DNA of 64,000 nucleotides from Jaapia argillacea MUCL 33604 (lineage: Eukaryota > Basidiomycota > Agaricomycetes > Jaapiales > Jaapiaceae), in the NCBI GenBank assembly GCA_000697665.1, contig KL197712.1, positions 1,609,855 through 1,673,854 on the forward strand, written 5' to 3'. The notes below the pieces were generated by a model. The model was given only the letters and a program-made list of their open reading frames with translations, searched no databases and was not told the origin of the DNA. The position numbers were made by a program, and so were the translations under genes. Position 1 is the first letter of the stretch. Every line of letters starts with the position of its first letter. Below, piece by piece: positions 5,032 through 31,256 of the stretch.

Positions 5032-5803
5032 ACGAGATGACATTGCTCGGTTTTCTTCTTTCGTTCAATTATTCGGGAAAGTGGCATTGTAAATGGGAGT
5101 GTCGGTAGGGTACATAGTGTGTTCAGGTCCTCAAGGAGGAATATTTATAACTTGTGTCCTTATCTGTTGGAAGACCCATCGTGCGGTAGTTGGTTCCCAA
5201 GTACTAATCTATTCCCCACTGGTAGTCGATAATCCCCTCCACGAGAGTCGTGGGATGATGAAATCAAATTATGTAGCTCAGCAACACAGTTTCCTTCGCT
5301 TGGAGCTTGAGCTTGAACGCTCAGGTCGTCGACTCAGCCGACCGATCTCCTCCTGGACGTTTCCACTTATACCAAAGCTTCACTGGCAACCAGGGGTAAC
5401 TTATGCAGGGCCGAGGAGATCATTTCAGCCACGTCGGAGAGCTCAAACCGTGCAGGGAGTTTGCTCAGACTACCAGATGTCGCCGTCCATTGATCGCAGT
5501 TCCTGTCACCATGACCAGGGATTGCCTCGCTGTCGACGGAATACCTGGCACCCACTCGCCATGTCAGCTCAGCCAACCCGTTTCTACTTCTGTATCCCTG
5601 TTGCACCACCCGTTCATTTCCGGGTTCGGTTCATCGCCCTGAGGCGGTGAAAACTTCACCAACATCACTGCGCACAGGCCGATTCAAGTTCGACGCTGGG
5701 ATTGGTGCCCTTATCTATGTACTAGCCCGACACGAACTATAAAGTTGCATTGGTTTTGAAAAACATACCCTCCCATCACTCGTTCGTCTCAGGGAGTCCC
5801 ACC
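5032..5803. other. Spacer and 5' region of the left CNH gene
   Basis: From about 5369 on, this stretch matches the opposite strand upstream of the right CNH gene (30520-30954), so the left arm of the inverted repeat begins here. Long open frames at 5093-5650 (+) and 5367-5609 (-) are partly kept in the other copy, but neither looks like a known protein and they are probably fortuitous. Confidence 0.5.
5738..5743 (+). promoter_or_regulatory. TATA box of the left CNH gene
   Basis: TATAAA lies 61 bases before the start codon. The right CNH copy keeps the same box 60 bases before its start. Confidence 0.55.
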
Positions 5804-7568
5804 ATGAACACCCCAACCATTGCGCCATTCGAACTGGAAGTCCTCATGACTGAGACGCTCACTTCGGCAGCGTCTGACTTTGAAACAGCGGAATCGGAGG
5901 TCAGAGGGTTGACGGTTGAGAAGAGAGTGGAGTGCTCCGCGCCTTTCAGTGCGTCCTTCTCCTTCGTTTTGTTAGCTGGGTCCCCGGTCTCGCCCTTTGT
6001 TCTAACTCCGGTTCTGTTTCCCCAGAGACCAGCGACGGGAGACAGTTCATCGCTATAGGGGATTCTGAAGGTGTTTGGATTGGATTACAGTCAGATCCTT
6101 CCTGTACGTCCTCCCCTGTAGAACATCTCTTCGATCTCCTCGCCTTCGATTGATGGTCGTGAAATTTGGTGAATACCCACAGCGATCCGTCCTGTCCTAC
6201 ACAAGAAATTCGTCAACGGGCTCGGTGTATTAGACGATGAAGGATGGTTAATCGTCTTATCTGCAAAGGTATGTTCGATTCCGTCGTTCTGGTGGATCAT
6301 CTTTGACCATGAACAATGTGCATTGTCCCTTCCCTTCTTTTGGTGCGCTGCGAATTCAACTAGACGTTATACGCATACCGCATCGAGTCACTCATCCCTC
6401 CCCCCTCCGAATCTTCTCAAGATCACCCCGCCACTCTCCCGGAAATGCTGAGTAAGGATGGGGAGGTGGAGTTTTTCAGGATTGGGAGGTTTAAGGGACG
6501 GAGTTGTATAATATGTATGACGAAGGAAGGGGTAAGTTGTATCCCAGGCTCCTCGTTCACCAGCGAGGTATTCTGAGAGAAAGATTAACTAATCTTTCGA
6601 TTCTGTAGACGGATAGCAATTTCAGGGTTTGGAAACCTGCTTCTTCGGGTGTTAAGTTTTTCTCTTGGTTGAAGAAAAAGTCCGGGCCGTTCGTGGTTTC
6701 TCGAGTATGCCTTTTTGCATCACCTACAAGAGAATATCCGACTAATTGACCAGTAGGATTTCTGCGTGCTCTGCCATGCCTACGACGTCGAGTTCCTCGT
6801 CAATGCCATCGCTGTCCTGTGTGACCGAGGCTTTGAGATCATGAAAGTCACCAAGTAAGCTCGTCTTACTTGTTCAGCCGCGTCCCTTTTGAACCATCGT
6901 TTCTCGGTATGCAATTAGACTCAAGTGTACCACAATCCCCGATTGTGACGAACTCCACCTCGAGGAACTTTCTGAAAGGATCGGGAGGAGTAAACCGTTA
7001 GCCCTTTGTAGGCATGGTGAGACTTCTCATTTGCTTTGTTACTCTCGTGCGTATCAATTTCCCTTCTTTTCCCTTTTCCTTCTCACTCAGATCTTATATC
7101 GTAGACTTTGGGTTATCCGTCGACAACCATGGCACGCCCACTTCGCCACTCAATATTGTCGAATGGGAGAACGCAGCTGAGAGCGTAGCGTTTCACCCTC
7201 CTTATGTCTTACTATTCTCCGGAAGTGGTGTTGAGATTAGGCATATGGAGAGTGGCGTAGTGGTCCAGAGGATTAGGGGGAGTGGGGTGAAATGCACGTG
7301 GAAGCTTTCGCAGCAGACGTTGGTATGGGATGGAAAAAATAGGCAGGAAGGGGGGGATGTCAAGGTTCACGGTGTCTGGAATTCAACCGTGTCGGTGGAC
7401 CCGCCACGGCCGTTGACAGAACCTGATGGTGGGGCTGGGGCGGCTTCTGTCCCGCAGCGCGTTCATCTGCGAGAGGTGTTTCAGTTGAGGCTTAGAGACC
7501 CTGGAAACGAGGAGTCCTCGGCTGGTGAGTCGATGATGACAACTGGAATCCTTGTTAATTTAAACTGA
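5804..7568 (+). CDS. Stand-alone CNH (citron homology) domain protein, left copy
   Basis: CNH domains are beta-propeller-like modules that bind small GTPases or other partners. This protein has no DH, PH or DEP part. It starts at the ATG in TCCCACCATGAACACC and reads FELEVLMTETLTS, then CSAPFS, then DGRQFIAIGDSEGVWIGLQSD, TLYAYRIESLIPPP, EVEFFRIGRFKGRSCIICM, a WLKKKSGPF linker, AIAVLCDRGFEIMKV, and in the last exon FGLSVDNHG, IVEWENAAESVAFHPPYVLL and HGVWN. Each block has a counterpart in the same order in the CNH part of the Rho GEF at 48.6-55.1 kb (for example GCAEGVWIGF, AILCTRGFEIMDL, FGLYVDRHG, IEWEGTAERVAWHPPYVLL). About eight exons. I infer that it arose from the 3' part of such a GEF and took up a new start. 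It may act as a competitor or scaffold in Rho signalling; function is not shown. Confidence 0.75.
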
Positions 7569-8042
7569 CGTATTGCATACGCTACTAGACGATAAGGAAT
7601 TATGATTGTGGAGTTCATTTCGTGCCTACGCGGACACTGGACAGTAATTATACCTTGGACATTCGTAAGGACTATTCTTGTTGCACCTCGGACGGCGGCA
7701 TTGTGGTCGATGACAGGTCATACGGCCCGGGTCCTCGTTGCATCTCCATGAAGCCTACTCTTGCTATGTTAGAACGCCGCCACGAGAATAATGGACACTT
7801 CTGCCTCGGTTGAGAGCATAAGCGTGAACTCCAGCATGCCTGGGTGGTGAAACGTCGGTGTCTGGTGTCCCCGCCAAAACGTGGGAGAGGGCGGGACCGC
7901 CTATCCGCCACATGACCTGTCGATGCCTTTACCTGATTCCGAATCATCGTGACTCACATCCTCGCTCTCTATCTAGTAGCACAGTAAATCAGAGTTTCCT
8001 GAAGTATCAATCGCAGACTGTTCCCCTTTAAGAGCTCACACC
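7569..8042. other. CNH-to-F-box spacer, repeated four times
   Basis: The spacer between the CNH tail and the F-box start occurs four times with moderate divergence: here, at about 11660-12148, and on - at about 25553-25978 and 28624-29079. It contains the block TGGACACTTCTGCC and GCCAAAACGTGGGAG. Short open frames inside are not consistent among copies. Unlike the other three copies, this one has no TATAAA before the F-box gene (it reads TATCTAGTAGCAC). Confidence 0.55.
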
Positions 8043-11000
8043 ATGGTTCAAACTCGTCGACAATCTGGGAAGCTTTCAATCCCTCGATACAACGAGGATG
8101 ATTTGTCCGATGAAGAACGTGTTGGTGGTGCCAATGGTGTGTGTGCTCGTCGTCGACCAGAAATCGATTATTGTTCATATCCAAATTAAGCCCATAAACG
8201 ACGAAGAATATCAGAATTTGGGAAGCGGAGGAAGATAAGAANNNNNNNNNNNNNNNNNNNNNNNNNNNNNNNNNNNNNNNNNNNNNNNNNNNNNNNNNNN
8301 NNNNNNNNNNNNNNNNNNNNNNNNNNNNNNNNNNNNNNNNNNNNNNNNNNNNNNNNNNNNNNNNNNNNNNNNNNNNNNNNNNNNNNNNNNNNNNNNNNNN
8401 NNNNNNNNNNNNNNNNNNNNNNNNNNNNNNNNNNNNNNNNNNNNNNNNNNNNNNNNNNNNNNNNNNNNNNNNNNNNNNNNNNNNNNNNNNNNNNNNNNNN
8501 NNNNNNNNNNNNNNNNNNNNNNNNNNNNNNNNNNNNNNNNNNNNNNNNNNNNNNNNNNNNNNNNNNNNNNNNNNNNNNNNNNNNNNNNNNNNNNNNNNNN
8601 NNNNNNNNNNNNNNNAATTTGGGAAGCGGAGGAAGATAAGAAGACCAAACCCGAAGGACGGAAAGTTAAGCATCCTATCGTCTATCCCACTTGACATTCT
8701 TTTTGAGGTAAGTCCCTACCCCTCTTACCCAAACCAATCACTTAAAATCACTGCCAAGATCTTCACTCACTTATCACCAAAAGACCTTCTCACCCTCTCT
8801 CGTACCTCCCGTATCCTTCGTTCCACCCTCCTATCCAAAAATGCAACTACCGTTTGGAAAAGGTCTCTTGCGAATATGCCCGGTTCACCTCCTGCTTGTC
8901 CGAAGGATATTTCAGAGGCAAGATGGGCAGAGTTGCTTTACGGCGCTACGAATTGTCATGTCAGTCTCTCCCACCTGCATTTTGATGTTATGATGCTGCC
9001 ATTCTAACGATACGAATGGTATAGATATGTGGGGCTGTAAATATTTTCAATATCGACTTCAGTTTTCGGCGCAGACTTTGTTTAAGCTGCAAAAAGACCA
9101 AGTAAGTAGTGTTACTCCGATCACCTCCCCGCTTCCTCTCAATCCCATCTCCAGCCTCGTATACTCTAGCAAATTCTCCAAGAAGTTTCCAGAATTCGAC
9201 CCATTAATCCTCGACCTCATCCCCTACGCCACCAGTCAGTGCCCCCCGCCCTCTCCCTCAAATAATACTAACTCCACTGTCACCAGTATCGGGCTCCTAC
9301 CCCCCAAATCACAAACTCCACAACAAACCCCCCTCCAAATACTTTCTCGAATCCGACATCTACTCGATGGCTCAAACCTTTGGTCTTTTGGCCAAAAACA
9401 TCCACATGCGAAAACCGGGTGCGAAAGCTAAATTGGAGGAGTTTAAGAAGGAGAGGGCGGAGTTTGTCAAGGATGTTGCGGAGTATGCAAAGGTGTGTGA
9501 AGGATGGGCGGTTGAGGAGAATAAGAGACTTTCGGGTTTGAAGGATGAGGCGGTGACTAATCGACGTAATGAGTGAGTATGTATCAACTTGTATCAGGGG
9601 TTAGTAGTGATGATGAGCGTTTCTTAGGATTATTAGCCGACTTCGGTCTCTTGGGTATGACCAAACCGACTTGAACGCCATCTCATGGAGTCGTTTCGTC
9701 CACCAATATAAAGACCTAACTGCGCGCAGTGAGCTTCCTTCCCTCCCCCTCACCGCCCAATTATACTCACCAAACGACACAACAGGCTGGAACATCATGC
9801 TCCCACAGCTCGAATCAGAATTGAAGGAGCGAAGAGAAGCCCGCTTGAGAGCAGAACGCAACCAACTCATCTATAACCGAAAACGTCTCGCGGCTTCCGC
9901 TTACAGGAATTGGAAAGTGAAAAATATCCCTCGGAGGGATTGGCCGCTTCTCCCGCAAGATTTTCAGGTGGTGGCTTGGGAGGGGTTTGAAGGTGTTATT
10001 GAGGCTCATTCGGATGTTGTGGTTGGGGAGGAGAGTTTCGAGGAGGCTCTTGGTGGGTTGGAGGAGGTTATCGAGAAGTGGAAAGTGGATAAAAAGCGGA
10101 AGTTGGTTTCATTGGTGCCGGTTGGAGCCCCCAGTTCGAGCTCGATATCTGAACCGCACGCGGGGCCCCAAGATGTGGATACGAGTCCTTTGGATCTTGC
10201 CACCTCCATTTTTGCCTGCAGGCGACCTTGTTGCAAGTCGATCCGCTGTGGAGGACTGCCACCCGTCCTGGGCGCAGCTCAACTTCTCTCCAACACTTAT
10301 CCATGTTTCCCTTTCCCGATCTCCGACGGCGGCTCTACACCCCAAGTAGCAGCACCATTTGAGTTTAGGTTCAATGAGGATTTGTCGAGAGTGGCGAAGA
10401 GCCTTGTTGAGTGCATTGGTGGGGACGTGGAGAGGATGACGATGAAAGATATGGATGAGCGAGATGCCAGGTTTTTTTGTGTTAGTTGTTCTAGAGTTGA
10501 GAGATCTCGTCTTGGGGAGGATGATGACCAGCGCCAGCAGCGGGACGAGGAGAAGGGGTTGGAAGTGGGTGCTCTATCTTGGCGGGCTTGCGTGAGTTTT
10601 TCCCATTCGAGAAGATGTTTCGCACTCATCCGATCCGTCCTCCGTTAGATTAACCACCTCACGACAATACACAGGGCACAGAAGGAACACCGAGATCCGT
10701 CCAACTTCCGCTTACTCCCTCCTGTTTTGGCGGAACAAGCAAAAGCTCAGGAATGTTGCGAGCCTGACCCCGCGTTCCGACAGAGTGAGTACGTGGCTTT
10801 GCGCTTGTTGCGCTTATCATGTCCACAGGGGAGAAACGAGGGACGACGCCTTTGCTCATGTCAAAACACAGTACGAGACCGCCCTTATCCCAACTGACAA
10901 ACTTGTGGACACTCACTTTGCTCTGGTACTTTAGACATGACATTGAAAATCCCTTGGAAGATGAACATTTTGTGCTTGATTCCAAGATCAGCAGATATTT

Positions 11001-11052
11001 GCGACGTCCTCAGGTCGTTCGGCTGGATGAAGAGATACTGTCGGAAATCTGA
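8043..11052 (+). CDS. F-box protein, copy 1 (interrupted by gap, probably frameshifted)
   Basis: F-box proteins link substrates to SCF ubiquitin ligases through Skp1. The start is MVQTRRQSGKLSIPRYNEDD, followed by a basic stretch and the F-box itself (VPLDILFE-intron-IFTHLSPKDLLTLSRTS, 8680-8830 in this copy). A CxxC...CxxC zinc-like pattern follows, then a long middle region with EEVIEKWKVDKKRKLVSLVP and a second CxxC near 10480. Three signs of decay or assembly trouble appear. There is a run of N in the first intron/exon area. Four extra bases (AGTA, about 10788-10791), absent from the other three copies, break the frame before the LCACC motif. The TATA box is missing. The last exon is again clean and ends in VRLDEEILSEI-stop. 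About 700 residues would be expected if it were intact. Confidence 0.6.
8242..8615. other. Assembly gap (374 N)
   Basis: The 27 bases just left of the N run (8215-8241) are identical to the 27 bases just right of it (8616-8642). F-box copy 2 contains this segment only once (about 12322-12348), with nothing inserted. The gap is probably a scaffold artefact between two overlapping contig ends. Confidence 0.85.
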
Positions 11053-11249
11053 GGGAACGCTCGCTGTGATGAAATACCTCGGTCGAGGTTCGCTGGCTGG
11101 TGGACGTTGTGATAGGATCTATGCCCGCTGTCATTTGTATCGTCTTTCCTCGGCTTTGATACCCTTCGGAAACTCGTGTAACTTTGTATCTCCACTGTGG
11201 GCTGGAATTAAAAACTGTAAACTCATACGAATTCCAAGCTTTACAGTAG

Positions 11250-11660
11250 CACGTAGCTTACCCATCCTAGAAGATGGTGATATAATTCGGTCAAGTTTGG
11301 ATCCCTCCCTCTTCCCAGGATTCAGTTTCGTACGTCACTGCCCACGACGGTTTCCAATCTGCTCAGACTGTGTATGAGTTTTCACCTCGCCATCCTTTCC
11401 CCTTGAAATTCAAAAAAGCATCTGTGATGTAGGGCTGCAACTGCGATCCCGTCCGCTGTGCAGACGACTATTTCTCGGTACTATGGAGCTACGCAGGTCA
11501 CAGTTATCGGTCATTCACTCGGTACAGTTTCGACTCGACGTCGCAAAGGGCAACTACTAAGGAGAGAAAGCAAAATTCCTAAGTCGCCGATAATCCCCTC
11601 GACGAGAGTCACTGAGTCGGTGATGACAGCTGGAATCCTTGTTAATCTAAACTGACGTAT
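11250..11660 (+). pseudogene. Scrambled lipase 2 / CNH tail fragment
   Basis: From about 11261 to 11540 the sequence follows lipase 2 (SSLDPSLFPG, then YYGATQVTVIGHSLG), with its frame broken in the middle. About 45 unplaced bases follow, then 11587-11610 resembles 5224-5252 (GATAATCCCCTC-ACGAGAGTC). From about 11611 it matches the CNH gene tail (7528-7590). The pieces stand in the original order, lipase 2 - CNH upstream region - CNH tail. They therefore look like the remains of a second lipase-CNH unit after large internal deletions, and not like a working gene. Confidence 0.7.
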
Positions 11661-12087
11661 TGCATATGCTACTAGACGATAAGAAATTATGATTGTGGTT
11701 TTCATTTCGTGCCTACGCCGACACTGGACAGTATTTATACCTTGGACATTCGTAAGGACAATTTATGTTGCACCTCGGACGGCAGCATCGTGGTCAACGA
11801 CAGATCATACGGCGGGGGGTCCTCGTTGCATCTCTGTGAAGCCTACTCTTGCTATGTGAGAACGCCGCTATGATAAAAATGGACACTTCTGCCTGGGTTG
11901 AGAGCATAAGCGTGAATTCCAGCATACCTGGTGAAACGTCGGTTCCCCGCCAAAACGTGGGAGAGGGCGGGGTGGCTATGCCCAGGGCGGGACCGCCTAT
12001 CCGCCACATGACCTGTCGTTGACCACGATGTCGACGCATTTACCTGATTCCGAATCATCATGACTCACATCCTCGTTCGGTATATCC

Positions 12088-12093
12088 TATAAA
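12088..12093 (+). promoter_or_regulatory. TATA box of F-box copy 2
   Basis: TATAAA lies 61 bases before the start codon and is kept at comparable places in copies 3 and 4. Confidence 0.5.
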
Positions 12094-12148
12094 TCACAGT
12101 GAATCAGACTCTCCTAAGTATCAATCGCAGCCTCTAAGAACCAACGCC

Positions 12149-14764
12149 ATGGTCCAAACTCGTCGACAATCCGGAAAGCTTTCAATCCCTCAATACAATG
12201 AGGATGATTTGTCCGATGGAGAACGTGTAGGTGGTGCCAATGGTGTGTACTTGTCGTCGTCGACGACCAGAAATCGATTGTTCATGTCCAAATTAAGCCC
12301 ATAAACGACGAAGAATATCAGAATTTGGGAAGCGGAGGAAGATAAGAAGACCAAACCCGAAGGACGGAAAGTTAAGCATCCTACCGTCTGTGCCACTTGA
12401 CATTCTCTTCGAGGTACGCCCCTCCCCCCTCTCACCCAAACCAATCACTTAAAATCACTCCCAAGATTTTCACCCACTTAACACCAAAAGACCTTCTCAC
12501 ACTCTCTCGTACCTCCCACATCCTTCGTTCCACCCTCCTATCCAAAAATGCAACTACCGTTTGGAAAAGGTCTCTTACGAATATGCCTGGTCCACCCCCT
12601 GCTTGTCCGAAGGATATGTCAGAGGCAAGATGGGCAGAGTTGCTTTATGGTGCTACAAACTGTCATGTAAGTCTCCCGCCCTGCATCTTGATGTTTTGAC
12701 TATTCCGTTCTAACGATAAGAATTATATAGATATGCGGGACCATCAATATTTTCAATATCGACTTTGGTCTTCGGCGCAGACTTTGTTTAAGCTGCAAAA
12801 AGACTAAGTAAGCGATTACTCCGATCACCTCCCCACATCCTCTCAATTCCCTCTTCAGCCTCGTATATTCTGGTAAATTCTCCAAGAAATTTCCAGAATT
12901 TGACCCCACAATCCTCGACCTCATACCCTACGCCACCAGTCAGTGCCCCCCGCCCTCTCCCTTAAATAATACTAACTCCACTGTCACCAGTATCAGGTTG
13001 GCGAACGTTCCAACGCTCCTACCCCCCAAATCACAAACTCCACAACAAACCCCCCTCCAAATACTTTCTCGAATCCGATATCTACTCCATGGCTCAAACC
13101 TTTGGTCTCCTAACTAAAAATGTGCACATGCGAAAACCAGGTGCGAAAGCTAAATTGGAGGAGTTTAAGAAGGAGAGGGCGGAGTTCGTCAAGGATGTCG
13201 TGGAGTATGCGAAGGTGTGTGAAGGATGGGCGGTTGAGGAGTATAAGAGACTTTCGGGTTTGAAGGACGAGGTGGTCACCAATCGACGTAATGAGTGAGT
13301 GTGGTCAACTTGTCTCGGGGGCTAGCGATGATGAGTGTTTCTTAGGATTACGAGCCGACTTCGGTCCCTTGGGTATGACCAAATCGATTTCAACGCCATC
13401 TCATGGAGTCGTTTCGTCCACCAATATAAAGACCTAACCGATCGAAGTGAGCTTTCTTCCCTCCCCTCCACCGCCCCTTTATTCTCATGAACCAATCCAA
13501 AAGGCTGGAACATCATACTCCCAAAACTCGAATCTGAAATCCAAGCGCGAAGAGAAGCCCGCGCAAGAGTAGAACGCAGCCAACTCATCTATAGCCGAAG
13601 ACGTCTCGCGGGCCCCGCCTATAGGAATTGGAAAGTCAAGAATATCCCTCCGAAGGACTGGCCGCTTCTCCCGCAAGATTTTCAGGTGGTGTCTTGGGAG
13701 GGGTTTGACAGTGTTATTGAGGCTGCTTCGGATGTGGTAGTTGGGGAGGAGAGCTTTGAGGGGGTTCTTGGGGGGTTGGAGGAGGTTATCGAGAAGTGGA
13801 AAGTGGATAAAAAGCGGAAGTTGGTTTCATTGGTGCCGGTTGGAACCCCCAGTTCGAGCTCGATATCTGAACCACACGCGGGGCCCCAAGATGTGGATAC
13901 GAGTTCTTTGGAACTTGCCACCTCCATTTTTATCTGTACGCGACCTTATTACTCTTCGGTCCGCTATGGAGGAATCCCACCCGTCATGGGCACAGCTCAA
14001 CTCCTCTCCCACACTTATCCATGTTTCCCTTTCCCGATCTCGGATGGCGACTCTACAACCCAAGTAGCACCATCATTCGAGTTTAGGTTCAGTGAGGATT
14101 TGTCGAGTGTGGCAAAGAGCCTTGTTGAGAGCGTTGGTGGGGACGTGGAGAGGATAATGATGAAAGATATGGATAAGCGGGATGCGAGGTTTTTCTGTGT
14201 TGGTTGTGCCAGGGTTGAGAGATCTGGTCCTGGAGAGGGCGATGCTCAGCACCAGCAGCGGGACGAGGAGAGGAGGTTGGAAGTGGGTGCCCTATCTTGG
14301 CGAGCTTGCGTGAGTGTTTCCCATTCGAGAAGATATTTCGCACTCATCCGATCCATCCTCCCTTAGATTAACCACTTCATGACAATACACAGGACACAAG
14401 AGGAACACCAAGATCCGTCCGACTTCCGCTTACTCCCTCCCATTTTGGAGGAACAAGCTATAGCTCAGGAATGTTGCGAGCCTGACCCTTCGTTCGGACA
14501 GAGTGCGTGGCTTTGCGCTTGTTGCGATTGTCATGTGTATAGGGGAACGACGAGGGATGGCGCAATTACCCATGTGCAAACACAGTACGTGACCACCTTG
14601 CCCCAACTGACAAACTTGTAGATACTAATTTGCTCTGGTGCTTTAGACACGGCGTAGAAAATCCTTTGGAGGATGAACATTTTGTGTTTGATTCCAGGAT
14701 AACCAAACTTTTTCGACCTCCTCAGATCGTCCGGCTGGACGAGGAGGTGATGTTGGGACTTTGA
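12149..14764 (+). CDS. F-box protein, copy 2
   Basis: The cleanest of the four copies for reading the gene plan. Exon 1 (12149-12242) encodes MVQTRRQSGKLSIPQYNEDD and ends in phase 1. Exon 2 (12322-12413) encodes FGKRRKIRRPNPKDGKLS and VPLDILFE. Exon 3 from 12466 gives IFTHLTPKDLLTLSRTSHIL and the NMPGPPPACPKDMSEARWAE block typical of agaricomycete F-box proteins. Next come a CxxC...CxxC pattern (HICGT ... LCLSCKK), SMAQTFGLL, GLEEVIEKWKVDKKRK, FFCVGC and WLCACCDCH. The last exon ends VRLDEEVMLGL-stop. Around 700 residues in about ten exons. The cysteine pairs suggest two zinc-stabilised parts. The substrate is unknown. Presumed role: adaptor of an SCF E3 ligase. Confidence 0.75.
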
Positions 14765-15164
14765 TGGAATGCTCACTGTGGTGAAATAATTCTTGGCTGG
14801 CTAGTGGACATTGTGATGGAATGTGTGCTCGCTGTCCTTGTATCTTCTTTGATTGGCTTTGATATTCTCCATAAGCGTTGGGCAGTCATGTAACTCTTTA
14901 TTTCGGTGGACTGTAGGACCAAAACCTGTAATTTTGCCTTCTTCAGCCGACGCGACCTTCGGCGCTGACCTATCTTCAGATGGGATTCGCGCTTATACCT
15001 AAGTCCACTGTAAATTAGACAAGGCTTTGTAGAAAACAATTCTTTAGTTTTAGTTATCCGTCCATATTGGAGATCGGGTTAGGGTAAGTGGCAGTGCATA
15101 CTTAATTTACGATGATCTGCATCTCAGCCACTCTCCAGCCACCTCCCTCTCACTCCGCCTTACC
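14765..15164. other. Spacer, F-box copy 2 to TBCB
   Basis: Holds the 3' end of F-box copy 2 and the promoter of the tubulin cofactor gene. The first bases resemble the 3' trailer of copies 1 and 3 (GGAATGCTCACTGTGGTGAAAT). No other gene is seen. Confidence 0.5.
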
Positions 15165-16144
15165 ATGTCAGGCACGCTAACAGTCTTTGTGCGATCACCC
15201 GATACCCGTTCGGAGCGTCGGTTCGACCCTCATCTAACAATCGCGCAACTCAAGGTCCTTAAATTATTCCATCCTGCGTCACATTCAAAGGCTAAATAAT
15301 AATTCGATTGGATGCGGTAGGCGAAGCTCGAGTTGATCACTGGGATACCGGTCCCGAACCAATCGATTTCGTTGTTGAATTCGGAGAGTGACGAGCAGGT
15401 CCTCGCTAAGCTTGACGATGATTCAAGGCCGATTGGGTTTTACGGTGTGAGGGACTTTCAGGTGTTGAATGTACGTTCTTTGGTTGTTTCGTTGATGTTG
15501 AGGAGAGAACGTTGAGATGAGATGCACGATTGGGGTTTTAGGTGGTGGATACGAACCCTTCCACGTCATTTACGGGTCAGTTGACCGATGTGTCTCAAGT
15601 TGAGAAGTTTGAGTTAAGCGAGGCGGAATACGAGAGGCGACAAGGTCCGTCTTTCCCTCCTCTCCAACGGCTTCCGTCGACCAATTCTTCCACACAAAAA
15701 ATAGATAGCGTCCTCGCATACAAACAGCGTCACCAACTCGGTCGGTTCGCGCCCAAGGACGCCACTACCAAACCTGAGGCAGAAACACCACCCGAGGTGA
15801 TCAATTCCATCAAAGTAGGTTCCAGGTGCCAAGTCGAGTCGTCAGAAGAAGATTTGCATAAGAGGGGTACGGTTAGGTATGTTGGTGAGACGAAGTTCGC
15901 TACTGGTGTTTGGGTTGGGGTGGAGTTTGATGAGCCGTTTGGGAAGAATGATGGCTCGTGAGTGCTTTCCTATTCCCTTATTGGATATTCCGGGAGAGAA
16001 TTTGTGTGTTGATTAATGTATAGGGTGAAGGGAGAGAGATATTTCGAGTGCAGACAGAACTATGGGGTGTTCGTTCGGCCTAATAAGGTGCAAGTGGGAG
16101 ATTTCCCAGTTGAAGAGATTGATTTTGATGATGAGGAGATGTGA
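15165..16144 (+). CDS. alp11: Tubulin-folding cofactor B
   Basis: Cofactor B takes part with cofactor E in folding and turnover of alpha-tubulin in the cytosol. Four exons can be read: 15165-15254, 15321-15470, 15542-15957 and 16024-16144, giving about 258 residues, the usual length. The N-terminal ubiquitin-like part includes MSGTLTVFVRSPD and RRFDPHLTIAQLKAKLE. The middle has the FELSEAEYERRQ and SVLAYKQRHQLGRF motifs of the family. The CAP-Gly domain is at the C-terminus (GSRCQV, RGTVRYVGETKFATGVWVGV, GKNDGSVKGERYFEC, YGVFVRP). The chain ends in an acidic DFDDEEM, an EEVD/EEY-like tail typical of this protein. Exon phases join without loss. The name follows the fission yeast homologue; Alf1 and TBCB are synonyms in yeast and human. 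Confidence 0.92.
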
Positions 16145-17050: not shown

Positions 17051-20094
<3,044 letters not shown>

Positions 20095-20740
20095 TCCTGC
20101 TGTTGTTTTGGACGCTCTCCTCCCCCATTGTTCTATCTCTTGTCTTCCCCATCATTCTCTCTCCCTGCACGTTGGTGTCGTCATCGTTTCCTTGGCCATA
20201 CGCACGTTTCTGCCTCGCTAGAGCTCTTTGTAATGTTACCGAAAGAATAACGAGTTGCATGCATGCCATCGCGTCGCCGAGCCAATGTTTTTACGCTCGT
20301 TGCGGTACTTGTGCGCGGTGGAACCGTCTGTAAGAATTTATAGCTTGCCTCATGGGCGTTCCTCGTGTGGCGAAGAAGCGTAGAAGGACTGCAAGTTTAG
20401 GAAGAGAGAACACCCCTGATTTGAAACGACGCAATGCAGAGATGTTTATGGTAACTGCAAGGCTTGCTGGGGAGGAGCTCTTCCGATCGCTCTTCGTGTT
20501 TTTTCTTCCAGATCTGGCTGGGAATCATCTGCGCGGCTTGCCGTTATCGAGCTCGACGACGACCAACGAACAAGTTGAACGGCCGCAATAAGTCTCCAAT
20601 TTAAAGACTTCGTGTCCAGTAAGCACCGGCCTAGGACTCGCTGTCTGGTTTACCGGTTATCAGCTGCTACTGTGCACCTCGACTTGCCCTTGCCTGCCGC
20701 CTTACGCCTTATTCTGATTCTACCCTCGGCCGGGCAAGCC
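20095..20740. other. Spacer, CDC48 to DGAT2
   Basis: CDC48 3' flank and DGAT2 5' flank. The 3' flank is rich in CTCTCC. No other gene can be supported; an open frame at 20352-20591 has no recognisable motif. Confidence 0.5.
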
Positions 20741-22654
20741 ATGGAACCTCGAAATGTCTTATCGGCTGCGTCTCGAACTTTGTCGTCTTCATCTTTGAAG
20801 GAGAGGCTTTCGAAGTTGTCTGTTACTCCGCTTAGACCTGTGGCTGCTCTCCAGGCTAATATCGAGTGAGTTTTTCTTCCTTGGTTGGTTGGAGCGGGAG
20901 TGTGCTGGGAGGTAGAGGAAGAAGTGAATGGAGAAAGCTGATCTTAAGGTTGGGATGGCAGTTTTGTACCCGCGAAGGTACCGAGGAAGAGAAGATTGCA
21001 GACGCTGGCTGTTTCGATATGGGCATTGTTGATGCCCATCACCACTTTTATCTTTTTAATACTTTGGTGAGTTCTATTCCGGTATCCGTCTCCTTACTCG
21101 GTCCAACTTATTTGACTCTAACTATCTATGGGCCCTTCGGCGCATATATGCAGTTCGTTCCCTCAATTATGGCCATTCATAGCTGTATACCTCGTATGGA
21201 TATTCTGGATCGACAAGAGTCCGGAACAGGGAGGGAGGATTAGTCCTTGGTTCCGTTCAAGTCGGTTTTGGAGATATTTTGCAGAGTATTATCCTGCTTC
21301 GTGAGTTTTATTGCTTGTTTTTGACTTGATGTAAAGGGGTGGAGGTTGATGTGATTTGGATGTTGGTGTTGGTGTTGGATAAAGGTTGATCAAGGTGTGT
21401 TGGGTGTCGTTGGAGTGACTGGCTTGGGCATGACTGGAGGGTGTATGTAGGAATACGACCTCCCACCAGATCGGCCGTATGTCTTTGGATATCATCCCCA
21501 TGGTGCGTTGACCCATCCCAACCCTTCCTCAACCAAATTCCTGAATTCGCCGTGTTCATCACAGGCATCATTGGCATGTATGCCGCGCTCCACCTGATCC
21601 ATTTTAGCCCCACTCACACCTACCTAGGGGCGCAATGGCAACTTTCGCAACAGAAGCCACCGGATTCTCCACCGCCTTCCCAGGCATAATTCCCCACCTC
21701 CTAACCCTCTCCTCCAATTTCACAACACCTATCTACCGCGACATCATCCTCGCCCTTGGTATCTGTAGCGTAAGTAAACAAAGTTGTTCGAATATTTTGA
21801 AGAAGGGGAATGGGATGGCTATTACTATCGTTGTGGGTGGTGCGGCGGAGAGCTTGAGTGCGAGACCGGGGACGGCGAATTTGACTTTGAGGAAGAGGTG
21901 AGTTTGTTTGGTTCTTTGGTTTGGTAGTCGATAGGAGTGGCGGGAGTTGATTGGTGGTGGTTTAGGTTGGGCTTCATCAAGGTTGCAATACAGCATGGGT
22001 GAGTGTCCCTTTGTCGATCTCATGGACCCCTCGTAACCCATGACCTCAGAGCGGCGCTGGTCCCAGTGTTCTCATTCGGCGAGAACGACGTGAGTTTATC
22101 GAGGTTGTGACCGCACGCATCTGAATCTGAGTGTACCACTGTACCAATGCCAGATATATCAACAAATGCCAAACCAGCAAGGCACGACAGTATACAAGAT
22201 ACAGAAGAAGTTTCAGAGTATCTTTGGGTTTACGTTACCACTTTTTCATGGGAGAGGGATGTTGAATTGTACGTTGTCTTCTTCCACTTGTTTGTCCTCG
22301 TATGATTCAGTGATGGACTTGGTTACAGATAACTTGGGTCTTATGCCGTATCGGAAACGGATAGTGTCAGTTAGTGCGTACCCTACTTCCCCTCCCCACT
22401 CTACACAGAAAATATTGACCTCATCCAACTCCCTAGTTGGCCGTCCGATTCAATGTGAGAAGTGTGATCATCCTACGCTTGAGGAAATTACAAGGGTACA
22501 GAAGGAGTATATCGAGGAGCTTGTCAGGTACGTGTTTCGTCGATTCGGGGCTGTGGTTCTCCCTCGCTGAATGGTTACGACTGTTAGGATATGGGATACG
22601 TATAAAGATAGTTTTGCAAGAGCGAGGAAGAGCGAGTTGAGTATCATTGATTGA
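20741..22654 (+). CDS. DGA1: Diacylglycerol O-acyltransferase 2
   Basis: Adds an acyl group from acyl-CoA to diacylglycerol, the last step of triacylglycerol synthesis at the ER and lipid droplets. Exon 1 encodes MEPRNVLSAASRTL. Exon 2 has VPAKVPRKRRLQTLAV and the first membrane segment. Exon 3 has a second hydrophobic run (LWPFIAVYLVWIFWI) followed by the FRSSRFWRYFAEYYP motif. A 10-base exon (21385-21394, GTTGATCAAG) then supplies LIK and joins in frame to EYDLPPDRPYVFGYHPHG, the HPHG catalytic motif. Later come ATEATGFSTAFPGI, VVGGAAESLSARPGT, the RLGFIKVAIQHGAALVPVFS block, SFGEND, and GRPIQCEKCDHPTLEEI. It ends KSELSIID-stop. About 360 residues, a normal DGAT2 length. The neighbouring lipases act on the same lipid class, but the link is only positional. 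Confidence 0.93.
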
Positions 22655-22970
22655 TTCCCTGTTGCTGGTAGGGAGTTGGGGGAAGGGGGGGGGGGAGTGG
22701 ACTGCTTTCTTTTGTGACCGCGCATACATAGAGCTACTCTTGTCGCAATACACCATCGTCGTGTTTATTAAAGCCTGGAATCCGTATGAATTTACAGTTC
22801 TTGGTTGCAGCCTACAGTCCATGCATATGAAAATACAAAGTTACACGAGTTTCCGAAGGGTATAGAGGGTATCAAAGCCAAGGAACGACGATACAAATGA
22901 CAGCGAGCATAGATTCCATCACAACGTCCACCAGCCAGCCAACAAGTATTCCACCACAGCAAGCATTCCA

Positions 22971-25552
22971 TCAGATTCCCAGCAGAGCCTCCTCGTCCAG
23001 ATGGACGACCTGAGGACGTCGTAAATGTCTGCTTATCCTGTAATCAAACACAATATGTTCATCTTCCAAGGGATTTGCAATGTTATGTCTAAGATACGAG
23101 AGTAAATCAGTATCCACAATATTGTCAGTTGGGGTAAGGCGGTGTCGCACCCCAATATCACATGACCAATTGCATCGTGCCCCGTCGCTGCCCTGTGCAC
23201 GTAACGATCGCAACGAGCGCAAAGCCACGCAATCTGTCCCAACGCGGGGTCAGGCTCGCGACGTTCCTGAGCTTTAGCTTGTTCCTCCAGAGCAGGAGAG
23301 AGCAATCGGAAGTCGGACAGATGTTCATGATCCTCCTGTGACCTGTGTATTGTCATGAGATGGGTCATCTAACGGTGGATAGATTGGATGAGTGCGAAAC
23401 ATCCTCTTGAATAGGAAAGACTAACACAAGCCCTCCATGATAGAGCGTCCACTTTCACCTCCTTCTCTTCATCCCCAAGACCAGATCTTTCAACTTTCGC
23501 ACAGCAGACACAAAAAAACCTCGCGTCTCTCTTATCCATCTCTTTCATCGTCATCTTCTCCACATCCCCGCCAACGCACTCAACAAGGCTCTTCACTACT
23601 TTCGACAAATCCTCACTGAACCTCAACTCGAATGGTGCTACTTGGGGTGTGGAGTTGCTGTCCGAGATCGGGAAAATGAAACATGGGCAAGGATGGGAGA
23701 GGAGTTGACTTGTTCCCACGACCGGTTGGGGCGCCCGAGAGCGGAATGAAGAGCAACGGGGTCGAGTACAAATAAAGATGGAGGTGGCAAGGTCCAAAGG
23801 ATTCGCATCCCCATCTTGAACCTCCGAGTGAGATTCGGATATTGAACTCGAACTGGGCGTTCCAACCGGCACCAACGAAACCAATCTCCTCTTCTTATCC
23901 ACTTTCCATTTCTCGATGACCTCCTCCAACTCCCCAAGAATCCCCTCAAAACTCTCCTGCCCAACCACCACATCCGAATCAGCCTCAATAACACTCGCAA
24001 GTCTCTCCCAGGACACCACCTGGAAATCTCGCGGGAGAAGCGGCCAATCCCTCGGAGAGAAGTTTTTCATTTTCCAATTCTCATAGGTGGAGGTCGCGAG
24101 ACGTTTTCGGTTATAGATGAGTTGGTTGCGTTCTGCCCTTGCGCGTGCTCCTCTTCGCGCTTGGATTTCAGATTCGAGCTTTGGGAGCATGATGTTCCAG
24201 CCTTTTGGATCGATTCATGAGGATTAAGGGGCGGTGAAGGGGAGGGAAGGAAGCTCACTTCGTTCGGTTAGGTCTTTATATTGGTCGACGAAACGACTGC
24301 ATGAGATGGCGTTCAAATCGATTTGGTCATACCCAAGAGACCGAAGTCGGCTCATAATCCTAAGAAACACTCATCATCGCTAGCCCCCGAGACAAGTTGA
24401 CCACACTCACTCATTACGTCGATTGGTGACCACCTCGTCCTTCAAACCCGAAAGTCTCTTATACTCCCCAACCGCCCATCCTTCACACACCCTCGCATAC
24501 TCCACGACATCCTTGACAAACTCAGCCCTCTCCTTCTTGAACTCCTCCAATTTAGCTTTCGCACCCGGTTTTCGCATGTGGATGTTTTTGGTTAGGAGAC
24601 CAAAGGTTTGAGCCATGGAGTAGATGTCGGATTCGAGAAAGTATTTAGAGGGTGGTTTGTTGTGGAGTTTGTGATTTGGGGGGTAGGAGCGTTGGAAGGT
24701 TCGCCAACCTGATACTAGTGACGGTAGAGTGAGTACTATTTGAGGGAGAGGGCGTGAGCACTGACTAGTAGCGTAGGGTATGAGGTCGAGGATTGTGGTG
24801 TCAAATTCTGGAAATTTCTTGGAGAATCTGGCAGAGTATACAAGGCTGAAGATGGAATTGAGAGGACATGGGGAGGTGATCGGAGTAATCGCTTACTTAG
24901 TCTTTTTGCAGCTCAAACAAAGTCTGTGCCGAAGACCAAAGTCGATATTGAAAATATTTACAGCCCCACATATCTATACCATTCGCACCGTTAGAATGGC
25001 AGCATCATAACATCAAAATGCAGGTGGGAGAGACTGACATGACAATTCGTAGCGCCGTAAAGCAACTCTGCCCATCTTGCCTCTGAAATATCCTTCGGAC
25101 AAGCAGGAGGTGAACCGGGCATATTCGCAAGAGACCTTTTCCAAACGGTAGTTGCATTTTTGGATAGGAGGGTGGAACGAAGGATATGGGAGGTACGAGA
25201 GAGGGTGAGAAGGTCTTTTGGTGATAAGTGGGTGAAGATCTTGGGAGTGATTTTAAGTGATTGGTTTCGGTGAGAGGGGGGAGGGATGCACCTCGAAGAG
25301 AATGTCAAGTGGCATAGACGGTAGGATGCTTAACTTTCCATCCTTTGGGTTTGGTCTTCTTATCTTCCTCCGCTTCCCAAATTCTGATATTCTTCGTCGT
25401 TTATGGGCTTAATTTGGACATGAACAATCGATTTCTGGTCGACGACGAGCACACACACCATTGGTACCACCTACACGTTCTTCATCGGATAAATCATCCT
25501 CGTTGTATTGAGGGATTGAAAGCTTTCCGGATTGTCGGCGAGTTTGAACCAT
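22971..25552 (-). CDS. F-box protein, copy 3
   Basis: Same plan as copy 2. The start ATG (25550-25552) opens MVQTRRQSGKLSIPQYNEDD, followed by the F-box with IFTHLSPKDLLTLSRTSHIL (about 25215-25265) and NMPGSPPACPKDISEARWAE. Then come the CxxC pairs, SMAQTFGLLTKNIHMRKPGA (about 24560-24616), a long exon with LEEVIEKWKVDKKRRLVSLV and FFCVCC, and WLCARCDRYVH in the penultimate exon. It ends VVHLDEEALLGI-stop at 22971. No frame break was seen. The middle shares ESHSEVQDGDANPLDLATS with copy 4, and not with the left-arm copies, which read EPHAGPQDVDTS. The second cysteine motif is WLCARCDRY where copies 2 and 4 have WLCACCDCH, so metal binding could differ. Confidence 0.72.
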
Positions 25553-25978
25553 GGCGTAGAGGTACTTCAGGAAAGTCTGATTCACTTGGCTTTATACTAG
25601 ATAGCGAGGGAGGATGTGAGTCACGATGATTCGGAATCAGGTAAAGGGCGGCGGCATCGTGGTCAACGACATGAGGATAAGCGGTCCCGCCCTGGGCATA
25701 GCCACCCCTCCCTCTCGTTTTGGCGGGGACGTCAGTTTTGTCACCCAGGCATGCCGGAGTTCCCGCTTTTGCTCTCGACCGAGGCAGAAGTGTCCATTAT
25801 TATCGTAGTGGCGTTCTACCATAGCAAGAGTAGGCTTTATGGAGATGCAACGAGGGGCCCCCGCCCCAAATGAGCTGAAATCGACCACGACGGCGTCGTC
25901 GGAGGTGCAATATTAAAAATCCTGACGAATGTCCAAGGCATAAGTGTACAGTGTTCGTGGAGGCACAAAATGTCACAA
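25553..25978. other. Spacer between F-box copies 3 and 4
   Basis: Carries the F-box 3 promoter and a copy of the spacer that normally follows a CNH gene. F-box copy 4 ends directly in the CNH-tail side of this spacer, so the CNH gene once placed between the two F-box copies has been lost almost completely. Confidence 0.55.
25591..25596 (-). promoter_or_regulatory. TATA box of F-box copy 3
   Basis: TATAAA on the - strand, about 40 bases before the ATG. Copy 4 has the same box 66 bases before its ATG; the difference comes from a short 5' leader deletion in copy 3. Confidence 0.5.
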
Positions 25979-28623
25979 TCATAATTTTTTATGGTCTGTA
26001 GCATGAGCATGTAATCCGAACAACGTCTCCTCGTCCAGCCGAACGACCTGAGGAGGTCGCAAAAGTTTGGTTATCCTGGAATCAAACACAAAATGTTCAT
26101 CCTCCAAGGGATTTTCTACGTCATGTCTAAAGCAACAGAGAAAATCAGTATCTATAAGTTTGTCAGTTGGGGCAAGGTGGTCACGTACTGCGTTTGCACA
26201 TGAGTAATCACACCAACCCTCGACGTTCCCCTACAATACACATGACAATCGCAACAAGCGCAAAGCCACGCACACTGTCCGAATGCAGGGTCAGGCTCGC
26301 AAAATTCCTGAGCTATAGCCTGTTGCTCCAAAACGGGAGGCAGTAAGCGGAAGTCGGACAGCTCTTGGTGTTCCTCCTGTGTCCTGTGTATTGTCATGAG
26401 GTGGTTAATCTAACGGAGGATGGATCGGATGAGTGCCAAATATTTTCTCGAATGGGAAAAACTCACGCAAGCCCTCCAAGATAGAGCACCCACTTCCAAC
26501 TTCTTCTCCTCGTCCTGCAGCTGCTCATCACCCTCCCGAAGCCCAGATCTCTCAACTCTAGCACAAGCACCACAAAAGAACCTCGCATCCCGCTTATCCA
26601 TATCTTTCATCGTCATCCTCGCCACGTCCCCACCAACGCACTCGACGAGGCTCTTCGCCACTCTCGACAAATCCTCGCTGAACCTTAACTCAAATGGTGC
26701 TGCTACTCGGGGTGTGGAGTTGCTATCCGAGATCGGGAAAGTGAAACATGGGCAAGTATGGGAGAGGAGTTGACTTGTGCCCAAGACCGGTTGGAGCGCC
26801 CGAGAGCGGAATGAAGAGCAATGAGGTCGAGTACAAATAAAGATGGAGGTGGCAAGGTCCAAAGGATTCGCATCCCCATCTTGAACCTGCGCGTGCGATT
26901 CGGATATTGAGCTCGAACTGGGCGTTGCAACCGGCACCAACGAAACCAACTTGCGCTTTTTATCCACTTTCCACTTTTCGATAACCTCCTCCAACCCCCC
27001 AAGAACCCCCTCAAAACTCTCCTCCCCAACCACCACATCCGAATCTACCTCAATAGCACTCCCTAAACCCTCCCAAGACAACACCTGAGAATCTTGCGGG
27101 AGAAGCGACCAATCCCTCCCAGGGATGTTCTTCACTTTCCAATTCCTATAGGCGGAGGCCGCGAGACGTTTTCGGATACGGATGAGTTGGTGGCGTTCTG
27201 CTCTCAGGCGGGCTTCTCTTCGCGCTTTGATTTCAGATTCGAGCTTTGGAAGCATGATGTTCCAGCCTTTTGGGTCGATTCATGAGTATTAAGGGGTAGT
27301 GGGAGGAGGGGAAGGAGGCTCACTGCGTTCGGTTAGGTCTTTATATTGATGGACGTGACGACTCCATGAGATGGCGTTCAAGTCAAATTGGTCATACCCA
27401 AGAGACCGAAGTCGGCTCGTAATCCTAAGAAACACACTTCATAACTAGTAACCCCTGAGACAAATTGACCACACTCACTCATTACGTCGAATGGTGACCA
27501 CCTCGTCCTTCAAACCTGAAAGTCTCTTATACTCCTCAACCGCCCATCCCTCACACACCCTCGCATACTCCACAACATCCTTGACAAACTCTACCCTCTC
27601 CTTCTTAAACTCCTCTAATTTAGCTTTCGCGCCCGGTTTTCGCATGTGAATGTTTTTGGTTAAGAGACCAAAGGTTTGAGCCATTGAGTAGATGTCGGAT
27701 TCGAGAAAGTATTTGGAGGGTGGTTTGTTGTGGAGTTTGTGATTTGGGGGGTAGGAGCGTTGGAAGCTTCGCCAACCTGATACTAGATACGGTGGGGTTA
27801 GTGTTGCTTGAGGAAGGGAAGGGGAGGACTGACTAGTGGCGTAGGGTATGAGGTCGAGGATTACGGGGTCGAATTCTGGGAATTTCTTGGAGAATTTTCC
27901 AGAGTATACGAGGCTGAAGGGGGGATTGAGAGGAAGTGGGGAGGCGATTGAAGTAATAGTGCTTACTTGGTCTTTTTGCAGCTTAAACAAAGTCTGCGCC
28001 GAAGAGCAAAGTCGATATTGAAAATATTCATAGTCCCGCATAACTATATGATTCATATCGTTAGAATGGCATAGTCAAAACATCAAAACACAGGTGGGAG
28101 AGACTGACATGACAATTCGTAGCACCGTAAAGCAACTCTGCCCATCTCGCCTCTGACATATCCTTCGGGCAAGCAGGGGGTGAACCGGGCATATTCGCAA
28201 GAGACATTTTCCAAACGGTGGTTGCATTTTTGGATAGCAGGGTGGAACGAAGGATGCGGGAGGTACGAGAGAGTGTGAGAAGGTTTCCCGGTGATAAGTG
28301 GGTGAAGATCTTGGGAGTGATTTTAAGTGATTGTTTCGGGTGAGAGGGGGGAGGGATGCACCTCGAAGAGAATGTCAAGTGGCATAGACGGTAGGATGCT
28401 TAACTTTCCGTCCTTCGGGTTTGATCTTCTTATCTTCCTCCGCTTCCCAAATTCTGATATTCTTCGTCGTTTATGGACTTAATTTGGACATGAACGATCG
28501 ACTTCTGGTCGACGACGAGTTACACACACCATTGGCACCACCTACACGTTCTTCATCGGACAAATCATCCTCGTCGTATCGAGGGATTGAAACCTTTCCA
28601 GATTGTCGACGAGTTTGAACCAT
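25979..28623 (-). CDS. F-box protein, copy 4 with a replaced C-terminus
   Basis: Intact in all exons I could follow. It has MVQTRRQSGKVSIPRYDEDD at the start (28623), the F-box IFTHLSPGNLLTLSRTSRIL, NMPGSPPACPKDMSEARWAE, SGWRSFQRSYPPNHKLHNKP joined to KYFLESDIYSMAQTFGLLTK, GLEEVIEKWKVDKKRKLVSL, FFCGACARVE, and WLCACCDCHVY. The last exon follows the others through VVRLDEE and then reads TLFGLHAHATDHKKL-stop. The DNA under this extra end (about 25979-26015) resembles the tail region of the CNH gene (bases near 7580-7605 and 11670-11690). A deletion therefore seems to have fused the F-box end to old CNH-tail DNA. Presumed SCF adaptor like its paralogues. Confidence 0.74.
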
Positions 28624-29079
28624 GGCGTTAGTTCTCAGAGGGGAACAGTCTGCGATTGATACTTCAGGAAAGTCTGATTTCACCGTACTTTATACTAGAT
28701 AGCGAACGAGGATGTGAGTCACGATGACTAGGAATCAGGTAAAGGCGTCGACATCGTGGTCAACGACAGGTCATGTGGGGGATAGGCGGTCCCACCCTGC
28801 ACCCCGCCATCTCCCACGTTTTGGCGGGGACATCAGACACCGACGTTTCACCACCCAGGCATGCTGGAGTTCACGCTCATGCTCTCAACTCAGGCAGAAG
28901 TGTCCATTATTATCGTAGTGGCGTTCTAACATAGGAAGGGTAGGCTGCATGGAGATGCAAGGAGGACCCCCGCCGTATGACCTGTCGTTAATTCATTGAC
29001 CACAAAGCCGCCGTCCTTACGAATGTCCAAGGTATAAGTATTGTCCAGTATCTGCGTGGGCACGAAATGAAAACCACAG
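28624..29079. other. Spacer, F-box copy 4 to right CNH gene
   Basis: Fourth copy of the CNH-to-F-box spacer. It contains the F-box 4 promoter. No conserved open frame is seen in it. Confidence 0.5.
28689..28694 (-). promoter_or_regulatory. TATA box of F-box copy 4
   Basis: TATAAA on the - strand, 66 bases before the start codon, in the same sequence context as copies 2 and 3. Confidence 0.5.
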
Positions 29080-30519
29080 TCATAGTTTCTTATCGTCTAG
29101 TAGCATATGCAATACGTCAGCTAAATCAACAAGGATTCTAGTTGTCATCACCGACTCACCAGCCGAGGACTCCTCGTTTCCAGGATCTTTAAGCCTCAAC
29201 TGGAACACCACTTGCGGATGAACGCACTGCGGGATAGAAGTCGCCCCAGCTCCACCATCAGGTTCCGTCAACGGCCGTGGCGGGTCCTAGGGAGGAATCG
29301 ATACGCACGAGCGTAACAAAGTAAACTCGCATTCTCGCCATACCTGCAGAGGCCTAACGGTTTACTCCCCTTGATCCTTTTAGAAAGCTCCTCGAGGTGG
29401 AGATGGTCACAATCGGGGACTGTGGTACTCTTGAGTCTAATCGCACAACGAGAAATGATGGTTCAGAAGGGACGCGGCTGAATAAGTAAGACGAGCTTAC
29501 TTGTTGATTTTCATGATCTCAAAGCCTCGGTCACACAGGACAGCAATGGATTTGTTGATGAACTCGACGTCGTAGGTATGGTAGAGCATGTAGAAATCCT
29601 ACTAGTCAGTCAGTCGGGCATTCTCCGGTAGGTGATGCAAGAAAGGCATACTCGAGAAACCGCGAACGGCGCAGACTTTTTCTTCAGCCACGAGAGAAAC
29701 TTCTTCTCTTTCGCACTCGTAGAAGCAGGTTTCCAAACCGTGAATATGCTATCCGTCTAAGGGTCGAAAGGTTACGAATACCTTGCCAGTGAACGAGGAG
29801 ACAGGGATATAACTTACTCCTTCCTTCATACATATTATATAACTCCGTCCCTTAACCCTCCCAATCCTGAAAAACTCCACCTCCCCAACCTTACTCAGCA
29901 TTTCCGGGAGAGTGGCGGGGTGATCTTGAAAGGACTCGGAGGGGGGAGTGACGAGTGACTCGAGGCGGTATGCGTATAACGTCTAGTTGAGTTCGTGGTG
30001 CACCAAAGGATGGGAGGGAGAATAAACATAGTTCAGGGTCCACCAAACGACTGAATCGAACGTACCTTTGTAGATAAGACGATTAACCATCCTTCATCTT
30101 GTAATACACCGAGTCGGGTGACGAATTTCTTGTGTAGGACGGGACAGATCGCTGTGGATATTCACAAAATTCCCCATGACCATCAATCAAAGGCGAGGAG
30201 ATGGAGGAGATGTTCTAAAGGGGAGGACGTACAGGAAGGATCAGATTGCAATCCAATCCAAACACCTTCAGAATCACCTAGGTCTCTGGAGGAGCGGAGC
30301 CGAAATAAGAACAAAGGGTGAGACTGATGAGCCAGGTAACAAAACGAAGGAGAAGGACGCACTGAAAGGCGCGGAGCACTCCACTCTTCCTCTAAACGAC
30401 TTGTCAACCGTTAATCCTCCGGTCTCCGATTCCGCTGTTTCAGGGTCAGACGCTGTTTCAGGGAGCGTCTCAGTCATGAGGACTTCCAGTTCGAATGGTC
30501 CATTAGTTGGGGTGTCCAT
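29080..30519 (-). CDS. CNH-domain protein, right copy, internally deleted
   Basis: Paralogue of the left CNH gene in inverted orientation. It begins MDTPTNGPFELEVLMTETLP at 30519 and keeps CSAPFS, AYRLESLVTPPSES, EVEFFRIGRVKGRSYIICM, WLKKKSAPFAVS and AVLCDRGFEIMKI. The section that in the left copy encodes FGLSVDNHG through HGVWN (about 7060-7397) is missing: sequence from the last intron continues straight into GGACCCGCCACGGCCG. A small indel also changes the tail, which reads MTTRILVDLADVLHMLLDDK, where the left copy stops after LVNLN. The protein would lack the last blades of the propeller-like domain, so it may be non-functional even though the upstream exons look clean. Confidence 0.55.
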
Positions 30520-31256
30520 GGTGGGATTTCCTGAAACGAAAGAGTGATGGACGGTATGTTTTTCAAAGCCAATGTAACTTTATAGTTCACGTCAGGCCAA
30601 TACATGGATAAGGTGCACCAATCACAACCTCGAACTTGAATAGCTCTGGTCGCAGCAGTGATACGGGTGGAGTTTTCACCGCCTCAGGGAGATGAACTGA
30701 ACCCTGAAATGAACGGGTGGTGCCAAATGGATACCAAAGCAGAAACGGGTTGGCTGATTCGGCATGGCGAGTAGGTGCCTAGTAGTCTGTGGACGGTGAG
30801 GCAATCCCTGGCCATGGTGGGATCTATGATCGACGGCGACGGCGACATCTGGCGGCGTCTGAGCAAACTCCCTGCACGGCTTAAGCTCTCCGACGTGGAT
30901 GAACCTCCTCAGCCTTGCGCAAGTTACTCCTGGTTGCCAGTAAAGCTTTGGTATACATGTAGAATTTTTCAAACAGTGATTTTCGTTCCGGCGTTTAGAC
31001 TGACAGCATGCATATGGACGAGGTCGTTGAGGATGTATGTGGTTTTAGGTTTGGAGAGGTCACGCGTGACTGACTTTCTGAACACCTCGGCGGATGAGAT
31101 TGGCCAACCCAAAAGGGAAGGTCTCCTTCCTTTTTGGATTAGTCACCCACTCGTTCGGGCAGGTTGATCGCCGGTGTTGATTCAGGCACGCAAGTCGTGT
31201 CCTTTTCCTTTCCCCGCATCTCCCAAAATCCAATCTTGTCGGTGCTGGTTTGAACA
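30520..31256. other. Right CNH promoter and arm boundary
   Basis: The part up to 30954 matches the left arm upstream of its CNH gene. Beyond that the DNA is unique. Open frames at 30676-30972 (-) and 30775-31167 (+) are not known proteins. Confidence 0.5.
30579..30584 (-). promoter_or_regulatory. TATA box of the right CNH gene
   Basis: TATAAA on the - strand, 60 bases before the ATG, matching the left copy in sequence and distance. Confidence 0.5.

Follow-up and report, generated by a model that had tools for sequence, protein, structure and literature searches.

Facing arms of F-box and CNH genes around a CDC48 segment in Jaapia argillacea, with decayed passengers and mosaic F-box copies

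In the basidiomycete Jaapia argillacea MUCL 33604, four F-box units (F1 to F4) and two copies of a CNH-domain gene lie in two oppositely oriented arms, which face each other across TBCB, CDC48 and DGAT2 genes. We analyzed this locus in a 64,000-nucleotide (nt) window of contig KL197712.1 (C4:1609855-1673854; the genome comprises 43.7 Mb in 95 contigs), and positions without a contig name refer to this window. Its protein families and the many introns of its genes fit a fungal, probably basidiomycete, source. The gene order is CNH-F1-F2 / TBCB-CDC48-DGAT2 / F3-F4-CNH'. We consider it likely, with a probability of roughly 0.85, that a three-gene unit was duplicated locally, in tandem and inverted, and that the F-box copies then exchanged sequence.

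Two facing arms and the genes in them

Self-comparison of the window placed the arms at 5368-14903 and 22769-30955, with an anti-diagonal of 5368-14903 against 30955-22769. Inverted matches covered 8176 of the 8187 bases of the right arm and 8461 of the 9536 bases of the left arm, a run of N being counted as uncovered. Nine BLAST pieces joined the arms at E values up to 1e-3. Seven were inverted and long (79-87% identity, gaps counted), and the other two ran in direct orientation over 26 and 23 bases. Across the arms, one stretch of 388 nt was 97% identical. Neither the right arm, block-shuffled 20 times, nor positions 31001-64000 yielded a match in comparison with the left arm at this threshold.

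An earlier note, made from the sequence letters, had described an inverted F-box/CNH array at 5369-30954 and had named a dot plot without an anti-diagonal as grounds for refutation. Its outer coordinates agree with our self-comparison to one base, and the anti-diagonal is present, so refutation by its absence is excluded. The note's left arm consisted of CNH and one F-box gene and ended at 11.2 kb. Here, F2 (11613-14903) was missed. Since F2 follows F1, both arms carry two F-box units. The observation is confirmed, and the structure is larger than first described.

F2 mirrors F3, and both are intact. F2 (+ strand) has 10 exons at 12149-14764 with GT/AG at the internal exon borders and encodes 696 amino acids; F3 (22769-26004, - strand; exons 25552-22971) encodes 686. 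F4 (26015-29158, - strand; coding from 28623) is also intact, and its end runs into a remnant ahead of F3, acquiring a short new tail. In F1 (7526-11243, + strand; exons within 8043-11052), exon 6 has lost 18 nt in frame, and exon 9 carries a 4-nt insertion, which shifts the C-terminal frame. All four units scored above the curated cut-off of the F-box domain (PF00646, 20.5 bits): F1 with 28.1 bits at 8744-8842, F2 with 28 bits, and F3 and F4, using spliced starts, with 36.9 and 33.5 bits. F4 reached 19.8 bits on a single exon, slightly under the cut-off, and one F1 frame other than the F-box-coding one gave no PF00646 match. The earlier note held that TATA boxes had been copied along with the genes. 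This is true of both CNH copies and of F2, F3 and F4; TATAAA was lost from F1.

The left CNH gene and its upstream stretch (5368-7605, + strand) match 30955-29289 in inverted orientation. According to a splice model, the gene is intact, with nine exons at 5804-7605 and 401 amino acids, and PF00780 matched residues 54-320 with 121.9 bits, over the curated cut-off. Its counterpart CNH' (29122-30955, - strand) is 87.2% identical to it without gaps. Exon 2 of CNH' lacks 25 nt and its exon 8 a net 291 nt, and this copy scored 24.1 bits against a cut-off of 26 in a genome scan. We regard CNH' as a probable pseudogene that may still yield a shorter product.

Three genes on the + strand, with ends set by eye, lie between the arms. 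The TBCB-like gene (15165-16144) has a CAP-Gly domain (PF01302, 56.9 bits in 15542-15958). In the CDC48 AAA ATPase gene (17051-20094), PF02359, PF02933 and PF00004 were found over their cut-offs in separate exons, and in the DGAT2-type acyltransferase gene (20741-22654) PF03982 was found in two exons with 93.7 and 56.7 bits. The earlier note's placement of TBCB, CDC48 and DGAT2 between the arms has Pfam support in all three genes; the name TBCB is that note's own label.

Mosaicism and constraint among the F-box units

In pairwise comparisons without gaps, identity between the F-box units was 86.1-89.0%; overall, they differ by 11-14%. The 123 informative sites among F1-F4 were divided between the pairings F1F2|F3F4 (50 sites), F1F3|F2F4 (49) and F1F4|F2F3 (24). 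Along the gene, the pattern changed 41 times, compared with an average of 78.5 changes under permutation (sd 5.1), and none of 10,000 permutations was this low. The best segment of each pairing also went beyond permutation (p 0, p 0 and p 0.001, respectively). Agreeing runs longer than expected by chance were detected in three of the six pairs, namely F1/F3 and F2/F3 (0/5000 permutations each) and F3/F4 (p 0.0002). The F1/F3 run, between opposite arms, comprises 27 polymorphic columns at F1 8812-9001. It lies inside a 198-bp exact match at F1 8812-9009, the longest exact inverted match across the arms; the longest exact matches within arms are 72 and 71 bp.

Trees of the four gene quarters disagreed with one another. 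In the third quarter, F1 and F2 were split with 98% support from F3, F4 and an outgroup from another contig, C47. In the fourth quarter, F2 and F4 were grouped at 96%. The first and second quarters gave groupings at 75% or less. Two of the four trees thus conflict with good support. A mosaic and such tree conflict are to be expected if copies undergo gene conversion or unequal exchange. A gene family with conversion is expected to have significant mosaic relationships along the gene, and F1-F4 have them; we infer that conversion is the mechanism. The permutation tests and conflicting trees support the earlier note's suggestion that the arms are places where F-box genes are copied or converted.

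We also estimated the ratio of nonsynonymous to synonymous substitution rates (dN/dS) by the Nei-Gojobori method with our own script, with F1 cut ahead of its frameshift. In all six F-box pairs dN/dS was 0.29-0.35, showing that the copies are under purifying selection. Codon columns 1-320 gave 0.13-0.22 and the later columns 0.35-0.53; the conserved half is the F-box half. In general, F-box proteins serve as substrate receptors of SCF ubiquitin ligases. On this basis, the F1-F4 family would be expected to act as such receptors, and Skp1 binding is predicted.

The probable copied unit and its origin

Short remnants indicate which genes were copied together. On the + strand, the interval from F1 to F2 contains a lipase gene fragment (11252-11534, 85.5% identical to 4216-4493), a 23-base remnant of the lipase-CNH spacer (11588-11610, resembling 5227-5249), and the remnant of a CNH 3' end, which begins at 11613 and resembles 7526 onward; the spacer and CNH remnants together were placed at 11588-11640. 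The fragment would be what is left of a second tandem unit. Beyond CNH', positions 30959-31071 (- strand) resemble the lipase upstream region, with 67% identity to 3059-2928 inverted (E 6e-8, pairwise). The order lipase, spacer, CNH 3' end between F1 and F2, together with the remnant beyond CNH', suggests that the original unit was probably lipase-CNH-F-box and that its passengers were partly lost from later copies.

The putative first gene of this unit is a class-3 lipase-like gene at 3713-5030 (+ strand), supported by a tblastn search of the window with pieces of its exons. One of its exons scored 15.1 bits for Lipase_3, under the cut-off of 22; a frame of the neighbouring paralogue (1772-2290) scored 38.7 bits, over the cut-off. 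The two class-3 lipase-like genes, at 1141-2419 and 3713-5030, form a tandem pair, and a distant lipase-like match was observed at 45388-46457.

Besides the two arms, the genome scan placed PF00780 at three sites: C4:206 kb, 48.9-49.8 kb in the window, and C8:1112 kb. We compared the left CNH protein with two of the three, C4:206 kb and the site in the window, and its better match was the gene at 48.7-50.1 kb (- strand, 32-39% identity). There, CNH adjoins a RhoGEF match (37 bits, cut-off 27.6) and a PH-like match (23.7 bits, cut-off 30), which indicates a Rho GEF-type gene at 48686-51616 on the - strand. The closeness of these two CNH sequences hints that the stand-alone CNH gene in the arms arose locally.

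The order of the units, the remnants, the mosaicism and the constraint are demonstrated parts of the history; the succession of events is our reconstruction. The unit lipase-CNH-F-box would have been duplicated locally in tandem and also copied in inverted orientation beyond TBCB-CDC48-DGAT2. The passengers (lipase, the inner CNH and the outer CNH') would then have decayed or been deleted, while the F-box copies were kept by purifying selection. Finally, gene conversion or unequal exchange would have passed sequence among the four F-box units, both within an arm and between arms, and inversion of the central segment may have been an occasional by-product.

Several points weigh against this history. 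The comparisons were made within one genome. If a finished arm with two F-box units had been copied whole, the mirror pairing F1-F4/F2-F3 would be expected, and this pairing is the weakest (24/123). Of the 50 sites that pair arm mates, 32 are concentrated in a single 250-column bin. By permutation, the F2/F4 run was marginal (p 0.024), and the F1/F2 (0.12) and F1/F4 (0.07) runs were without significance; agreeing runs are possibly inflated by uneven constraint along the gene. In addition, a run of 374 N in exon 2 of F1 (8242-8615), the sole one in the window, makes the connection of the F1 body to the CNH side dependent on scaffolding and thus tentative. About 200 bases separate this gap from the start of the 198-bp F1/F3 stretch, so the tract could be chimeric.

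The gap also raises the question of whether the mirror arrangement or the mosaicism was produced by scaffolding of repeat contigs. Its flanks carry an identical 27-base string, which occurs at five places in the window, two of them at the gap. Since the string is common to all four F-box copies, the gap looks like an assembly break inside a repeat, and one gapped F-box copy on C47, without flank overlap, also speaks for an artefact. However, the stretch from F2 to CNH' is free of N, and even without the sequence to its left, F2, the centre, F3, F4 and CNH' stand there in inverted order. Moreover, the F-box pairs differ by 11-14% (see above), and the remnants are consistent with a biological history. 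We therefore regard an assembly artefact as improbable. That one arm is merely a duplicate assembly of the other was ruled out by the overall divergence of more than 10% and the different decay of the arms. This divergence also speaks against a misplaced copy of one arm, the earlier note's other ground for refutation. Still less credible is a mobile element that carried and spread the unit. It would account for block copies in both orientations and for related F-box copies elsewhere in the genome, but long F-box, CNH and lipase copies are confined to this locus in DNA searches, and the arm-end stretches 14860-15180 and 30950-31500 are unique in the genome. As both tested ends (two of four) are unique, we rejected a mobile element at the arm ends.

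The earlier note had pointed out that recombination between the arms would flip the CDC48 segment. Such flipping of TBCB-CDC48-DGAT2 is possible. For an exchange that is ongoing, with both orientations in the population, there is precedent on Saccharomyces chromosome XIV: according to Salzberg et al. (2022, PMC9731477), arms of 4.2 kb, 97.6% identical in the reference strain, flank a 24-kb segment of 15 genes, which is seen in either orientation. In Jaapia, inverted repeats likewise lie at both ends of a unique segment, and the 388-nt stretch and the 198-bp match attest to high identity in places. In contrast to the yeast arms, near-identity along the whole arm length, which would be expected under recurrent inversion, was not found (F-box and CNH identities as given above; mostly 79-87% with gaps counted), and one CNH copy is decayed. 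Given this lower identity and the decayed passenger, we consider active inversion unlikely. The same doubt applies to the broader idea of a basidiomycete counterpart of the yeast flip/flop, in which F-box arms exchange across and repeatedly invert an island with the essential gene CDC48 while the same family builds a second set on C47.

The family elsewhere and comparison with known systems

When the whole genome was searched at the DNA level, long F-box, CNH and lipase copies turned up at this locus only; C47 gave short DNA matches to the F-box unit. On C47, two F-box units at 55.1-58.2 and 64.8-67.9 kb are direct copies (84%), and an inverted copy at 88.4-92.5 kb is 91.3% identical to the 64.8-67.9 kb unit in the longest piece. 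The inverted copy is the one with the gap (90472-91410, 939 bases). By tblastn, neither CNH nor lipase was detected at 42-104 kb or 225-235 kb of this contig. A retrotransposon gag match at about 101 kb lies outside the F-box copies, and an ankyrin/MYND gene is in a duplicated part of C47:42001-104000. Among the protein matches listed (64 of 80 candidates scored), family members elsewhere are single or in neighbouring pairs of the same or opposite orientation. As pairs occur in both orientations, inversion is common but not a rule.

The window contains other repeats. A direct repeat of about 70% identity (41646-43756 and 57328-59449) has amino acid permease matches in both copies. Four imperfect 79-base units, spaced 72-87 bases, at 35710-36031 lie inside a 570-codon open frame (35658-37367), for which no Pfam match was found.

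In our literature search, nothing joined the CNH domain with F-box in basidiomycetes, nor F-box, CDC48 and an inverted repeat. Inverted and tandem duplication with F-box exchange is an ordinary kind of event, here well preserved. The locus is a record of the growth of a fungal F-box family, in which pieces were copied, decayed, selected and exchanged. Near-identical arms are a feature of mammalian sex chromosome palindromes. As in the palindromes of PMC6790999, the Jaapia locus has mirror arms, and conversion between them would be shared; unlike in those palindromes, its arms have diverged, have decayed in part and enclose three unrelated genes. Expanded F-box families, for which the literature found is mostly on plants, with some on worms and mammals, share with it local clusters of copies, a conserved F-box half and a faster C-terminal half, whereas the unit duplicated here has CNH and lipase passengers. 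The likeness to yeast chromosome XIV (PMC9731477) consists of two multi-gene inverted repeats of a duplicating family around unrelated genes, with arm exchange. The Jaapia arms, read from one assembly, differ in being 8-9.5 kb long, of lower identity and partly decayed. If both orientations occur in nature, the locus would add to the fungal examples in which exchange between gene-family arms inverts a segment as a side effect, and would test how general such inversion is.

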